Shown here: piece after piece, positions 17,719-63,712 of the stretch
Numbering within the stretch: position 1 is the stretch's first letter
How the letters are laid out: every line of letters begins with the position of its first letter
NCBI GenBank assembly: GCA_017614375.1
Contig: JAGABZ010000001.1
Coordinates: 124,001 to 188,000, forward strand
Direction of reading: 5' to 3'
From: Spirochaetales bacterium
GTDB taxonomy: Bacteria > Spirochaetota > Spirochaetia > Sphaerochaetales > Sphaerochaetaceae
DNA: 64,000 nucleotides
Made by a program: the position numbers and the translations under genes
The notes under the pieces: model-generated
Databases searched by the model: none
The model's input: the letters and a program-made list of their open reading frames with translations, nothing else
Told to the model about the DNA's origin: nothing

Positions 17719-18414
17719 TTAATTTCTGTCTGTCAGTGCCTTGAGCGGAAAACCGGCAAGGACGACGGCGGCGCATTGACGGCCTTTAAGGCAATCAAGC
17801 GCCGAGATGACACTCGCGCCGGTGGTCACCACATCATCTATGACCACAACAGGCCTTTCCGGCGGCAGGACCGAAAGGTCGACTGAGAACATTTTTCCCG
17901 CCACCTGCAGACGTGCCTGTCTGTCCAACCGCTTCTGCTGGTATCCGCCGATGCGTTTCAGTGCACAGACTGTATCGAAAGGCATTTGGGACGCAATCAG
18001 TTTCATCTGGTCGAAGCCCCTTTTCCGCCTGCCCTGGTAACTGGCCGGAATCGGGACAATCACAGGCGGACTGAGCGGAAACAAAGCCCTGACCGCCCGG
18101 GTGTACAAGGTCGCAAGCGGTGAAGCGATTTCCCTCTTTCCCGTGTACTTCAACTCCTCAATCAGGTACCTCGTCAGGCCGGCAAACGGAGAGAGCACCA
18201 TGACTCTGGTTCCGCCGACCCCGCCGCAGAACCTGCACGGGAAATCCTCCCAGGGCAAAGGGTTGCTGCATGCCGGACAGCGGGTGAAAAAGTTGTCGTA
18301 CAACTCCCCTTTCACCCTGTCCAGACAGCCAGGGCACAGAGGTCCCCCCGAAGCCTTTCCGCAGACGCAGCAGCTGTCCAGAAGGAAAGAAGAGATAATG
18401 GCGGTTCTTCTCAT
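17719..18414 (-). CDS. comF: ComF-family phosphoribosyltransferase
   Basis: ComF proteins combine an N-terminal zinc-finger region with a phosphoribosyltransferase fold and act in DNA uptake or fork restart. Visible here are the Cys pairs CCVCGKA, CPGC, CPAC and CRFC in the first 70 residues, RRKRGFDQ, the family's R-x-x-R-G-F-[DN]-Q motif, and VVVIDDVVTTGAS, the PRPP-binding loop. ATG at 18414 gives 231 residues; a TTG seven codons earlier is possible. It follows mutS by 63 bases and is the last gene of the tamB-bamA-mutS unit. Confidence 0.92.
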   Translation of the reverse strand: MRRTAIISSFLLDSCCVCGKASGGPLCPGCLDRVKGELYDNFFTRCPACSNPLPWEDFPCRFCGGVGGTRVMVLSPFAGLTRYLIEELKYTGKREIASPLATLYTRAVRALFPLSPPVIVPIPASYQGRRKRGFDQMKLIASQMPFDTVCALKRIGGYQQKRLDRQARLQVAGKMFSVDLSVLPPERPVVVIDDVVTTGASVISALDCLKGRQCAAVVLAGFPLKALTDRN

Positions 18415-18477
18415 CAACCCCACTATCCGCGCCAAAAGGCGTTTCGCTGAAAGAATCCGGAACTTTTTTTCCGGAGA

Positions 18478-28554: not shown

Positions 28555-29163
28555 ATGGACGAAATCCTCAAAGGTTTTTTCGTAGTCGAGGGACTTGACG
28601 GAGCGGGTACCACCACCCAGCTCAGGCTCAGCGCATCAGCCATCTCCCGGCAGGGTCTGAAGGTGCTGACCACATGCGAACCCACGGACGGTCCGATCGG
28701 GCGCCTGATCCGCCGGATTCTGCGCGGTGAGGAGCAGTCCTCCGCCGAGGCCCTTGCCTATCTTTATGCCGCCGACAGGCTCGACCATATCAACCTCTGC
28801 ATCCGCCCTTCCCTGGGTAAAGGCAGTCTGGTGATTTCCGACCGCTATTTCTTTTCGTCGATGGCATATCAGGGTCTGGCTCTTCCGTTTGAGAGAATTG
28901 CCACGCTGAACGCCGGATTTCCCTATCCCCAGGCTGTTTTCTACGTCGACACCCCTGTTTCCGAGTGCCTGAAGCGAATCAACAACCGCGGTGAGAAGAA
29001 AGAAATCTTTGAAAAAGGCGTAACGCTGGAGAAGGTCAGGGCCAACTACGAGCGGGCGTTCTCCCTCCTGCCCGCAGAGGTCAGGCTGGTCAGGCTTGAC
29101 GGTCTTAAAAGCGCCCAGGAAATCTGCGACGAAATCGTAAACACCATTCTCAGCCTGAACTGA
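28555..29163 (+). CDS. tmk: dTMP kinase
   Basis: Thymidylate kinase phosphorylates dTMP to dTDP. The 202-residue protein has a P-loop FVVEGLDGAGTTTQ, the dTMP-site segment TCEPTDGPIGRLIR, and SDRYFFSSMAYQG, which is the D-R-[YF] motif, then a lid region with RGEKKEIFEK. The P-loop shows GAGTTT in place of the more usual GxGK[ST], a form also found in other spirochaetal and clostridial homologues as far as I recall. ATG 28555 has GGAG ten bases upstream; the open frame before it has no support. It is divergent from tamB. Confidence 0.92.
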   Translation: MDEILKGFFVVEGLDGAGTTTQLRLSASAISRQGLKVLTTCEPTDGPIGRLIRRILRGEEQSSAEALAYLYAADRLDHINLCIRPSLGKGSLVISDRYFFSSMAYQGLALPFERIATLNAGFPYPQAVFYVDTPVSECLKRINNRGEKKEIFEKGVTLEKVRANYERAFSLLPAEVRLVRLDGLKSAQEICDEIVNTILSLN

Positions 29164-29201
29164 CCCTGCCCTGTCCGGTCATAGCCCCCTTGTTATCGCC
29201 G

Positions 29202-29283
29202 TTTCATCAAAACTGGGCCATTAAGTGTTGAATTGATGAAAACCTTCATCAAAACAGGGCGATTAACTGTTAAACTGATGAAA
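29202..29283. repeat. two tandem 40-42 bp repeats with inverted ends (set A, units 1-2)
   Basis: Two units with period 42. Each starts (T)TTCATCA and ends TGATGAA(A), and has a similar interior (AAAAC-GGGC-ATTAA-TGTT). The arms are perfect 7-8 base inverted repeats, so each unit can fold as a stem with a loop of about 24 bases. They follow the tmk stop by about 40 bases and precede the nuclease-like gene. More units of the same family occur on the other side of that gene. Confidence 0.9.
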
Positions 29284-29307
29284 ACTTTCAAGGTCTTCTC
29301 AGCGAAA

Positions 29308-29342
29308 GGCCCTTTGCTTGCGATATACAGGCAAGGAGGGCC
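29308..29342 (+). promoter_or_regulatory. hairpin hiding the Shine-Dalgarno of the nuclease-like gene
   Basis: GGCCCT (29308-29313) pairs with AGGGCC (29337-29342) and CTTGC (29317-29321) pairs with GCAAG (29331-29335), leaving a small internal loop and a 9-base terminal loop. The AAGGAGG ribosome site lies inside the 3' arm, five bases before the start codon's upstream region. This predicts low translation unless the stem is opened. Confidence 0.7.
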
Positions 29343-29347
29343 GATGT

Positions 29348-30124
29348 ATGCTCTTAAGACTAATCAATGAAGTTTCGGAAACTCTGAGCGTCCTTGAAAA
29401 GATACTGAGGAAAAACTTTTCCCGGACAGAAGACACCCTGAAACTGACAACACAACACGGGAAGGCACGTTTTTACCTGAAAACCCACGGAGAGGAAAGG
29501 AAATATCTGAGCAGAGAAAAACTCTCGGATGTCAGGATCCTTGCGGGAAAGTTTTATTCAAAACAGTACCAGGATACTCTCGAAAGAGAGATTTCAGTCC
29601 TCAGGAGAGTCCGTACCATGCTTCAGGAATGCGGAACTCTGGATGATGCCTACAACTCCCTCCCGGAGCCTGTCAGGAATCTGGTAAAGCCCCGGAAACA
29701 CATAAACGATAAAGAAGTTGAAAGGTGGGAGAACGCGAACAGACCGGCACAAAGGCTCGGCCCGGGGGAAGGCATAAAGACTTTGCACGGAGAACGTGTG
29801 CGCTCAAAGAGCGAGGTAATCATCGCTGACCGACTTGCCGCTTTCGGAGTTCCTTACCGCTATGAAGTGCCTCTGCTTTTGGAACACAGGTTGTTTCATC
29901 CCGACTTTACAGTATTTAACAGGCGCACCGGGCGGCAATACAGGTGGGAACACTTCGGGAAGATGGGTGATCCTGAGTACAGTTGCGACGCCCTTTCCAG
30001 ACTGAGCTTGTACTCGAGGCATGGGATTATACTCTGGCAGAATATGCTGATTACATGGGAGACACAGGAAAAGCCTTTAATGACGGAGGTTGTAGACCTC
30101 ATCATCGAGAGATACCTCCTCTGA
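29348..30124 (+). CDS. PD-(D/E)XK-nuclease-like protein of unknown role
   Basis: A 258-residue protein. The C-terminal half has the pattern VRSKSEVIIADRLAAFGVPY (Glu156), LFHPDFTVFNRRTG (Asp186) and YRWEHFGKMGDP (Glu201), followed by two helices and a strand (IILWQNMLITWE). This spacing of E, PD and (D/E) fits the PD-(D/E)XK fold, and similar proteins are frequent in gut Firmicutes; the function is not established to my knowledge. The N-terminal half is helical and charged. ATG 29348 lies eight bases after AGGAGG. The gene is flanked on both sides by set-A repeats and its Shine-Dalgarno is in a hairpin. Horizontal acquisition is likely. Confidence 0.75.
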   Translation: MLLRLINEVSETLSVLEKILRKNFSRTEDTLKLTTQHGKARFYLKTHGEERKYLSREKLSDVRILAGKFYSKQYQDTLEREISVLRRVRTMLQECGTLDDAYNSLPEPVRNLVKPRKHINDKEVERWENANRPAQRLGPGEGIKTLHGERVRSKSEVIIADRLAAFGVPYRYEVPLLLEHRLFHPDFTVFNRRTGRQYRWEHFGKMGDPEYSCDALSRLSLYSRHGIILWQNMLITWETQEKPLMTEVVDLIIERYLL

Positions 30125-30146
30125 CCAGGTCATGCAAAACCCGGCG

Positions 30147-30269
30147 TTTCATCAAAACAGGTGCATTAATTGTTAAACTGATGAAAAGTTTCATCAAAAC
30201 AGGGCCATTAATTGTTAAACTGATGAAACCTTCATCAATACTTCGCCTTTCCCGGGCCCCGGGATGAAA
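30147..30269. repeat. two further set-A repeats plus a degenerate third (units 3-5)
   Basis: Units 3 (30147-30186) and 4 (30189-30228) have TTTCATCA and TGATGAAA arms around a nearly identical interior, period 42. A diverged unit follows from 30231: its left arm TTCATCA is kept, its interior is GC-rich, and its right end reads GGATGAAAC at the queA stop. The array fills the gap between the convergent nuclease-like and queA genes. Confidence 0.85.
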
Positions 30270-31307
30270 CTATTTGATAAAGGTGGCGTCTCCGTAGCTG
30301 AAGAAGCGGTAGCGCTCCTCTACGGCGTGTCTGTAGGCGTTGAGGATTATCTCGCGGCTGGAAAAGGCGCTGACCAGCACCAGGAGGGTTGATTCCGGGG
30401 TGTGGAAGTTGGTAAGCAGCTGGTCAACCACATGAAATTCAAAACCAGGGGTAATGAACAGGTCGGTGCGCCCGTATCCCGGCCTGACCCCTTCGCCGGG
30501 AGCCCAGGCACTCTCGAGGGTCCTGACCGAGGTTGTCCCGGTGGCCACTACCCTGCGGCCTTCGTTCTTGGCCCTGTTTATCGCCTCGGCGGCCTGAGGC
30601 GGGACGTGATAGGACTCGAAGTGCATATGGTGGCCCTCGAGGGTCTCGCTTCTCATCGGCAGGAAGGTTCCCATGCCCACATGAAGGGTGATTTCGACAA
30701 TTTCGATGCCTTTTGCGCGGATTTCGTCGAGCATCTGCGGTGTGTAGTGAAGTCCCGCGGTCGGGGCGGCGACACTGCCGTTTACCGAGGCGTAGACCGT
30801 CTGGTAGCGGTCTTCGTCGGAAAACTCATCCTCTCTGCGGATGTACGGAGGCAGCGGTACATGGCCGCAGCGCTCAAAGAACTCCTCGGTAACCGGGACG
30901 GAGAGCGAGACTATCTTCAGCCCCTCTTCATTCTCACCGAGAACGGTCCCGGTGGCGTAGGGACGGCCGTCGGAGTCGGCGAACGCAAAGGTCTTGCCCG
31001 GTTTCTGCCTCTTGCCCTTTGTCGTCATCGCCAGAAGCGTCCCGTCCGGATTCCGGCCGGTGAACAGAAACTGTACCTTTGCCCCGGTGTCGGCGACGCC
31101 GTAGACGCGGGCTTTGCGCACACGGGTGTTGTTGATGACAACTACGCTTCCAGGCTCGAGATAGTTGACAAAGTCCTCCATCCTGGCGTCGGTATACTGC
31201 CCGGTCCGGCGGTCAATGACCAGCAGCCGGCAGTCCTGACGGGCCTGGGAGGGATACTGGGCTATAAGCTCCGGGGGAAGCTCAAAAGAGAAGTCCTTGA
31301 CCAGCAT
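30270..31307 (-). CDS. queA: S-adenosylmethionine:tRNA ribosyltransferase-isomerase
   Basis: QueA transfers the ribosyl part of SAM to preQ1 in tRNA to make epoxyqueuosine. The 345 residues have family blocks [15 protein letters not shown] at the start, [32 protein letters not shown], and HVGMGTF near residue 205, with [12 protein letters not shown] and [14 protein letters not shown] near the end. ATG 31307 overlaps the ruvB 3' end by 26 bases, so it belongs to the yebC-ruvCAB unit, a common association. Confidence 0.96.
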
Positions 31308-40327: not shown

Positions 40328-43300
40328 CTATTTCACCGGAAAGCTAAAGGCTCCGGTCATCGCCGGCCGGCCTTTGGCCGTCATCGTCCAGACAATCTCA
40401 ACCGGCTTTGTCACATCGTGATCCTTGGGAATCTTGACACTGTAGGTGTAGTAAGTGCCGGATTGGTACTTCTCCGAGCCCATATCGTAGTTATCACAGT
40501 TCAGGTACATGCCCGGGCTCAGGCAATACCAGCTGTCCGTACCGCGCTCGACTGTCACCCCGTCGGTCAGACTCCTGAGCGAGAGGTTGGGATTAAGAAG
40601 CTCACTGCTCCCGGTGTTCTTGAAGCACATGTCGAAGTATACGGTCTCGCCGGGATTGGGCACCAGGTCCCCGTTGTTCGTACTGGTGACCCTGACGCCC
40701 TGGAGACTGACATCACCCTGTGTGTACTTCACCGGAATCGTAAAGACGCCGGTCATAGCGGGGCGGCCTTTGGCGGTCATTCTCCAGGCTATCTCCACCG
40801 GTTGTGTCACATCGTAGTTCGACGGAACCTTAAGACTGTAGGTGTAGTACGTACCGCTCTGGTACTTTTCCTTGTCCATGTCGTAGCTGTCGCAGTTGAG
40901 GTACTTGCCGGAACCCAGATAGTACCAGCTGTCCGTCCCCCTCTCGATGGTCACCCCGTCGGTCAGGCTCTGCAGAGACATATTCAGGTTGAGCAGTTCA
41001 CTGGTTCCGGTGTTCTTGAAGCACAGGTCGAAATAGACGGTCTCACCGGGGTTGGCCGTGTAGTCATCGTTGTCGGTATCGGTGATGCGCACTCCCTGGA
41101 GCCGGACTTCGCCGTCGGTGTACCGGACGGGAACGGTGAATACACCGGTCATATCGGGGCAGCCGGTGGCGGAAACCCACCAGCCGACATAAACCGGCTG
41201 TGTGACATCATAGTCCGACGGAACCTTCATGCTGTACGTGTAATAGGTTCCGGACTGGTACTTCTCGCTTTCCATGTCGTAGTTGTCGCAGTTGAGGTAC
41301 TTCCCCGCGCTCAGGTAATACCAGCTGTCAGTACTCCTGTCGAGGGTCACACCGTCGGTCAGGCTGTAGATGTACAGTCTGAGGTTCTGCAGCTTACTTG
41401 TCCCCGTGTTCCTGAAACAGAGGTCGAAGTACACCGTCTCGCCGGGATTGGCTATGCTATCGTCATTGTCGGTGCTCGTAATCTTCATCCCCTGAAGCTC
41501 TACCTTACCCTTGGAATAACTGACGGGAATCGTGAAGTATCCCTTCTGATCCTCCTTGCGGTAGCCGTAGCTGTTGGAACAGGTAATCGTCCAGTTGACC
41601 TTGATCGGCTCCGAGATGTCATAATCGCTGTCGATATCGATCCTGTAGCATCCGTACGTACTGCTGCTGTATCGCTCCGTCGCCAGACCTGAATCCTCGC
41701 TGTTCATGAAGTACGACCCGTTCAGGGAATACCAGTGGTCCGTTCCCCTGGATATGGTCACACCGGGGGTGTCGGTGCTGAGAGTCAGGTCCAGATTGGA
41801 CAGATCGGTGAACCAGGTGGTGTTTTTGAAACAGAGGTCAAAGTACACCGTCTCGCCGGGGTTGGCGTAATTGTCGTCATCCGTCGTGTCGATTATCCTG
41901 ACGCCGACCAGATTCACGATTTTTGTCTGGTTTACAATTTGAAGGGCGTCAACGACAAGCTGCGAAGTACCGGGTTCTTCGGGGGAGATCAAAAAGTCCT
42001 GTTGTGTCTTTTTCTTCACATCGATGGTGAAATTCCCATTCCAGTCGGAGTGGGAGTCACCGCTAATCTGCCATGTCAGGGACACGGGACGTGAGGTGTC
42101 GTAAGTATCGGAAATCTTGATACAGTAGGCATACGCACTGTAATCCGACCCGTCGTACCAACCGAGCTTCTCCAGGTCGGTGTCAAAGCAGTTGAAGTAC
42201 CTTCCCGCATCCGCCCTGCGCCAGATGCGGTTTCCCTTTTCAACCGTCACGCCGGGGGTGGAACTGACAAGGGTGATTTCCGGATTCATGACTCTGGAAG
42301 TTCCGTAGTTGAGAAAGGCCAGGTCAAAATACACGTATTCACCCTGCTCCGGTACATCGTCCCCGTCGGTGGTTCCCAGAATCTTCACCCCCTCCAGAGT
42401 GATGTCGGAGTTGATTTCAGAAACCGGGATTTCAAAGGTCCCGAACCACTGCGGATGATCGTCACCTTCGATGAGCCAGTAGAGGACAATCGGTTCCGAA
42501 GCCTTGTGATTTTCACTGACTGAGAGGCTGTAGTAGTAGGAACTGCCTGATCTGGCCGAAAAGTTGTCCGTCGAGCTGCCGTTGAGGTATCTGCCCGGAC
42601 TGAGTGAGAGCCAGTTTCTGCTTCGTTCCGTGAGGGTTACCGTCTCATCAGCCGGGAACAGTTCCTGCGGCGTCATCAGATACAGGGAAGGATTCTTCAG
42701 GACAGCGCTGCCGCTGTTCTTGAATATGAGGTCGAAATACACATCCTCACCCGGATTTACGACTGTATCGCCGTTTGTCGTGGAAATAACGACGCAGTCT
42801 ATGAATTCGACCTCGGAGAGGTTGCAGTACAGCATCTGCGGCAACGGGTCCCCGTCCTGCCACAGGACCACGGAACCCACCGGCTCGGCGTACACCGAAC
42901 CGTATCTGTTCACGCTCCAGCCGTAGAGCCTCCGGGTCGGATCGGTTGACTCGTCTCCGTACGGGAGAACTGCGTAGGAGGAGTTTTTCAGGTACCAGTC
43001 GTTGACCAAAAGACCGCCTACTACGGTACCGCTGAGTTCCAGCCTTTGCGGAATCGTACGCCCGGGGAAGAGGACCTTGCTGTAGACCGACATGTCAATC
43101 ATATCGGCCTGCTTCTCCTGCTCTGTTCTGATGTCTATACCGTTGAGGCTCATATAGACCTCATTCCCCCAGAAAGAGGCCATGGAATCCTGGGACAGGT
43201 CGAGAATCACCCGGTTGTCGTCGGCGCGCCGGATCTGGAGGCTTTGGGGGATGAAGCAGTAGGAAAGGCCACCGTCGACATCGATATTGAACGAAAGCTC

Positions 43301-63589: not shown

Positions 63590-63712
63590 TTTCAGAATAA
63601 AAACTCAAATTCCGGGCCCGTATTCGGAAATTTCAGAATAAACCCCGGAATTTCTGCCTCCGATTCGGAAATTTCAGAATAAAACCCGGATTTCCCGCCT
63701 CCTATTCTGAAA
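63590..63712. repeat. three tandem 41-bp repeats with inverted ends (set B)
   Basis: Units 63590-63630, 63631-63671 and 63672-63712 have no gaps and a strict 41-base period. Each begins TTTCAGAATA; right ends read TATTCGGAAA, GATTCGGAAA and TATTCTGAAA, the last being a perfect 10-base inverse of the left end. Interiors are related (AAACCCGGA, then TTTC, then GCCTCC). They fill the gap between the convergent topB and umuC genes. Confidence 0.92.

Follow-up and report, generated by a model that had tools for sequence, protein, structure and literature searches.

What is a nuclease-like gene doing between tandem palindromes that also occur without it elsewhere in the same genome? This question is raised by a stretch of 64,000 nucleotides (hereafter the window) from a 1.54 Mb, 98% complete spirochaete genome; among named organisms, its closest homologues come from spirochaetes of the gut and rumen. 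The pairing of this nuclease with palindromes of its own gives the impression of a selfish or genome-shaping element not described before; as the original prediction had supposed, we found no description of a system joining such a nuclease to such repeats in the open-access literature, and none is known to us.

The whole module is 1.1 kb long and occupies positions 29164..30269 (+ strand), between the stop of tmk at 29163 and the stop of queA at 30270, so that the interval reported earlier (29202-30269) misses part of it. Two palindromic units of the family that we call F1, of the form TTTCATCA..TGATGAAA, precede the gene (29202..29241 and 29245..29283), and two follow it (30147..30186 and 30189..30228), together with a decayed fifth unit, TTCATCA..GATGAAA, read by eye at 30231..30269. 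Between the two arrays lie a ribosome-binding site, AAGGAGG (29333..29339, + strand), and the nuclease ORF of 258 aa (29348..30124, + strand). These unit coordinates bear out the two repeats of 40-42 bp claimed before the gene and the two to three claimed after it, and 100 base shuffles of the window produced no units of the F1 type. The claimed period of 41-42 bases was likewise recovered by Tandem Repeats Finder, which detected three arrays with this period in the window: the two F1 arrays and a three-unit array at 63590..63712, which is a gene-free copy of another family (F2), whose cognate nuclease gene (L002) lies elsewhere, on contig C16. The 91-bp blocks upstream and downstream of the nuclease gene are 87% identical in direct orientation.

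The comparison with and without the gene, which had been suggested as a check between strains, was made here between species, in the draft assemblies of the window genome (G000) and its two congeners (G001 and G002). At the same tmk-queA site both congeners lack the nuclease and the repeats: in G001 the two genes abut, with 2 bp between the stops, and in G002 they overlap. Judged from this comparison, the module is either inserted relative to the congeners or lost from them; the flanks are too diverged for a target-site duplication to be defined.

Is the association of gene and repeats peculiar to this locus? The genome holds eight divergent nuclease paralogues, the window gene (L001) and seven others (L002-L008), which are ~30-46% identical, and all eight adjoin their own family of palindromic elements of 80-130 bp (F1-F8, respectively). 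The elements lie on both sides of L001, L002 and L004, upstream only of L003, L005, L007 (~12 nt from its start codon) and L008, and downstream only of L006. Each family also has gene-free copies elsewhere, at about 6, 11, 5, 9, 3, 1, 2 and 1 loci for F1 to F8 (~38 in total, as counted by sequence searches); copy numbers are low, 1-11 per family. The dispersed copies are not random pieces but extend over the entire compound element (83-128 bp, made of 2-3 units of ~41 bp), their arms are conserved while their loops have diverged, and they are located mostly between co-directional or convergent genes, with 2/23 in divergent promoter regions. A search of the genome for exact arms at a fixed spacing returned no match because arm spacing varies. 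Arms are related between L001 and L002 (TTTCATCAAAAC and TTTCAGAATAAAAC), the two closest paralogues. Most units fold as hairpins better than their shuffles do, in a test biased by the choice of these units as inverted repeats, whereas the F1 units fold only weakly as single strands (z -0.8), unlike most other families. At one further site (L191/L143, G000:C10:28951-29134), a promoter motif and a ribosome site lead directly into an F2 array without any nuclease ORF, probably what a deletion has left behind.

Another important issue is whether such associations exist outside this genome. Relatives of the nuclease are distributed patchily, being present in 8 of the 61 genomes searched and absent from both congeners, and they occur in Spirochaetota, Bacillota and Fibrobacterota (including Treponema, Fibrobacter and Clostridia), the culturable rumen species Treponema bryantii being one carrier. 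Their tree, in which ~10 long-branch rows are to be ignored as probable frame errors from hand-set starts, groups the sequences largely according to phylum, with nothing to indicate widespread transfer. Upstream inverted repeats with arms of at least 12 were found at 22 of 77 distant homologues (29%) versus 12 of 282 control genes (4%) taken from the same loci (Fisher p 9e-9). The expectation that homologues would have flanking repeats was supported: inverted repeats are enriched, with an arm sequence proper to each family, but about half of the distant homologues are without a clear repeat by this test. Long repeats common to both flanks are not general, since the elements are confined to a single side at most loci; 2 of 81 loci (L001 and L002) passed, and we judged the inverted-repeat test to be more apt than this two-flank comparison. 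When 16 repeat families were searched in 19 genomes, they were almost always confined to their own genome, the exceptions being X22, also present beside the orthologous nuclease L110 in G026, and X123, matched in G061; family X89 occurs at 7 scattered positions of its own genome. Arms are common to both members in 18/18 pairs of near-identical nucleases, a figure confounded by shared flanks, and almost never in distant pairs, leaving aside a few pairs hit by the same probable frame errors. Nucleases paired with private palindromes appear to be present in gut and rumen spirochaetes and among related genes of other gut bacteria. One homologue (L031, G062:C9:8874-9554) is preceded by an 8-copy array with a ~85-bp period, consisting of a CCCACTTAAC palindrome plus a spacer.

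Searches of Pfam, NCBIfam, PHROGs and PDB sequences yielded no family assignment for the 258-aa protein. In the AlphaFold model, its N-terminus (residues 1-96) is a helical hairpin, and its C-terminal domain (~144-258), which is modelled with confidence, is of the PD-(D/E)XK type. The N-terminal half is variable (mean majority fraction 0.35-0.46) and the C-terminal domain reaches 0.61, with E156, D186 and E201-H202 invariant in the nuclease alignment. Among solved structures, the predicted catalytic domain is matched best by that of the homing endonuclease I-Bth0305I (Z 8.5, 2.6 Å over 89 residues), followed among nucleases by Bax1 (Z 8.0) and VRR-type enzymes, Z-scores of 7-8 being middling; the top Foldseek ranks are mostly nucleases of the PD-(D/E)XK fold, but with E above 0.001. 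Membership of the restriction-endonuclease-like fold class is nevertheless well supported for the model, mainly by the fold matches combined with the invariant E156, D186 and E201; the predicted domain has both the fold and the conserved acidic residues of the PD-(D/E)XK superfamily, but the classical lysine was not pinpointed. The predicted active site is intact in 8/8 paralogues. The C-terminal part also resembles the predicted defence protein PDC-S68 (E 1e-23), only at profile positions ~1094-1248, and assignment to PDC-S68 was discarded, that protein having ~1200 aa versus 258 aa here. The same domain was found in plasmid-borne AAA ATPases, and phage and plasmid collections contained almost no full-length relatives.

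Under what circumstances might the enzyme be made? The original prediction placed a hairpin at the ribosome site of the gene. This hairpin overlaps a longer motif at 29300..29327 (+ strand), CAGCGAAA-N12-GCGATATA, a degenerate match to CAGCGAAA-N11-GCGGATAG that aligns with the upstream region of comM (score 18), and a promoter region is the better reading of this segment. We prefer the shared motif to a hairpin with a regulatory role of its own, although a hairpin may still form over the ribosome site. Six of the eight paralogues have CAGCGAAA or CAGCGATT shortly before the start codon, and for five of these six an alignment to the sequence preceding comM scores 18-25, the sequence of L006 being degenerate; L007 and L008 have no promoter motif. 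With up to 2 mismatches, CAGCGAAA-N11-GCGGATAG occurs at 13 sites genome-wide, and the reversed control occurs at none. The other sites precede dprA, comM, ssb and a comF-like gene, as well as genes for a RecQ-like helicase, a Gp49-like toxin, a secreted lipoprotein of the endonuclease/exonuclease family and two unknown lipoproteins (L192, L186, L196). A perfect copy lies within the window itself at 18423..18449 (- strand), 5' of the comF-family gene (~17719-18414, - strand), which matches TIGR00201 with E 2e-22, yet below the curated cut-off.

In three other genera the shared upstream sequence differs from that of the window genome, yet it accompanies the same set of genes: it joins comEC and comM to nuclease L102 in G027; comEC, dprA and comM to nucleases L106 and L113 in G020; and comEC, dprA and comM to nuclease L117 and a Y1 transposase in G026. 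The G026 motif seems to resemble an ECF-type promoter (TGAAAT-N17-CGTATA). The putative promoter is carried by 1 of 4 scored nucleases in G026, one or two of 4 in G027 and 0 of 5 in G010. Thus, in four spirochaete genomes (G000, G020, G026 and G027), some nucleases share a putative upstream signal with core transformation genes for DNA uptake, and since nucleases have a motif in common with dprA, comM, comF and ssb, or, in the other genera, a different one in common with comEC, comM and/or dprA, the nucleases look, from their upstream sequences, like competence-regulon genes. A profile search found no ComEC in the window genome, which does have dprA, comM and comF, whereas the congeners have ComEC; competence there may therefore be reduced, or the gene was missed. 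The Y1 gene of G026 (L258, G026:C2:63522-63860) encodes an IS200-like (RAYT-like) transposase behind the putative competence-type promoter of that genome and is flanked by short repeated CCAAAGCC/TCCAAAGC tracts.

How does this arrangement compare with known systems? REP elements are widely scattered in bacteria, with the RAYT transposase as the best-known partner, and certain palindromic families lack any known one (PMC3733652). As in REP-RAYT pairs (REPtrons), a single-copy enzyme gene is flanked by members of a palindromic family dispersed intergenically away from the gene, several independent gene-repeat families coexist in one genome, and duplication of the gene within its family is not seen. 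The enzyme here, in contrast, is a PD-(D/E)XK-type nuclease and not an HUH Y1 transposase, the elements consist of 2-3 tandem units of ~41 bp with long loops, and a competence-type promoter is added; moreover, the definition of REP includes a GTAG (or CGTC) tag at one repeat end (PMC3733652), and F1 and the other listed units have no conserved tag of this kind. No Y1/RAYT gene (PF01797) was found in G000, G063 or G070. The resemblance to REP-RAYT pairs put forward originally therefore holds as an analogy with an unrelated enzyme, and we keep it because the cognate repeats also occur gene-free and the module is absent from the same site in the congeners. Among solved structures, the catalytic domain is nearest in fold to free-standing homing endonucleases (I-Bth0305I, EDxHD family), but the present nucleases are multi-copy, divergent, chromosomal rather than phage-borne, intergenic and tied to repeats instead of a conserved gene site; of the hallmarks of homing, cutting of an empty allele and copying of the enzyme's own gene, what was observed is the empty site alone. 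Rpn nucleases are also of the PD-(D/E)XK class, and they are not known to have cognate palindromes. Like the present family, Rpn (YhgA-like) nucleases are multi-copy across bacteria, and a link between them and horizontal transfer has been described (PMC5350276); however, none of 53 alignment members matched the Rpn/transposase_31 or PDDEXK_2 profiles in a Pfam scan at E 0.01. MITEs are likewise short non-coding elements with inverted ends, whereas here the units are internally repeated, no known transposase partner is seen and the partner is a nuclease.

With slightly more belief than doubt, we suggest that the nuclease gene and its dispersed cognate palindromes are one unit working like a REP-RAYT pair, built on an unrelated endonuclease expressed in competence and probably spreading, or being protected, in a homing-like manner. 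The pairing, the dispersal and the shared upstream motif, which are directly seen, as are the difference in presence between species and the intact predicted active site, lead us to propose an enzyme whose targets are its cognate repeats and whose moment of action is the entry of foreign DNA as single strands; its binding, recognition, cleavage, copying, mobility and selfish benefit, and the role of the motif as a promoter, are what we infer. Each repeat family would have one enzyme gene, flanked by family members, and small non-coding copies elsewhere. The enzyme, a helical-hairpin N-terminus joined to a homing-endonuclease-like PD-(D/E)XK domain, would be made in the competent cell, would probably recognise its own arm sequence, as duplex or as a single-stranded hairpin of imported DNA, and would cleave there or nearby. 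Either repair or recombination mediated by RecA/DprA might then copy elements to new sites, along with the gene where two elements flank it; alternatively, transformation would be stopped from erasing the elements. Multiplication and patchiness would, on this proposal, result from homing-like cleavage and copying or from protection against replacement during transformation. That such pairs form a new, transformation-coupled class of selfish elements, in which an endonuclease switched on together with the DNA-uptake machinery would find the hairpins of its own family on DNA that is imported as single strands or is recombining, and would thereby copy the elements or keep transformation from removing them, is a more tentative idea, which we rather doubt than believe. 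What we describe is a second enzyme family, unrelated to RAYT, with the same gene-repeat arrangement among gut bacteria of several phyla, and the competence link would allow a direct test of the idea that mobile elements conflict with transformation (PMC4795794, PMC12637031). If the enzymes are indeed arm-specific, they offer a large natural set of paired nucleases and target sequences.

Could the nuclease instead serve its host? It might process imported DNA, for example by nicking or trimming hairpins of single strands, with the palindromes acting as immobile regulatory or self-marking sites. The upstream motif common to comEC, dprA and comM and the intact predicted active sites of all eight paralogues agree with such a role, but the patchy presence of the family, its multiplication into private repeat families and the position of the module as an insertion between housekeeping genes do not, and we consider it unlikely. 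The repeats could also be operators or terminators, controlling a small regulon that includes the nuclease gene, and not substrates of the enzyme; elements do lie directly upstream of several nuclease genes, as at L007. We regard this as quite improbable, given the rarity of dispersed copies in divergent promoter regions, the solely downstream element of L006 and the frequent multi-unit structure of the element. It is more doubtful still that the enzyme is an anti-phage or anti-plasmid defence nuclease with incidental repeats: its resemblance to the C-terminal domain of PDC-S68 and the domain's occurrence in plasmid AAA ATPases point that way, whereas the cognate repeats of all eight paralogues and the competence-type promoter would be left unexplained, and no defence genes are present among the neighbours of the 29202-30269 locus. 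An integron-like cassette with attC-type hairpin sites is hardly credible, for although a single gene is bounded by long hairpins and GTTAAAC in F1 fits the attC core GTTRRRY, this core is absent from the other families, the copies are scattered singly with no cassette array, and each nuclease has a different site.

Two other tandem arrays were noted. The window contains one at 40400-41452 with a ~396-bp period and 2.7 copies, and downstream of another nuclease (L124) there are ~36-nt repeats (GCTTTAGATATCTACAAAATAACACGTCTCCAAAGC) separated by ~30-nt spacers, resembling a CRISPR array.
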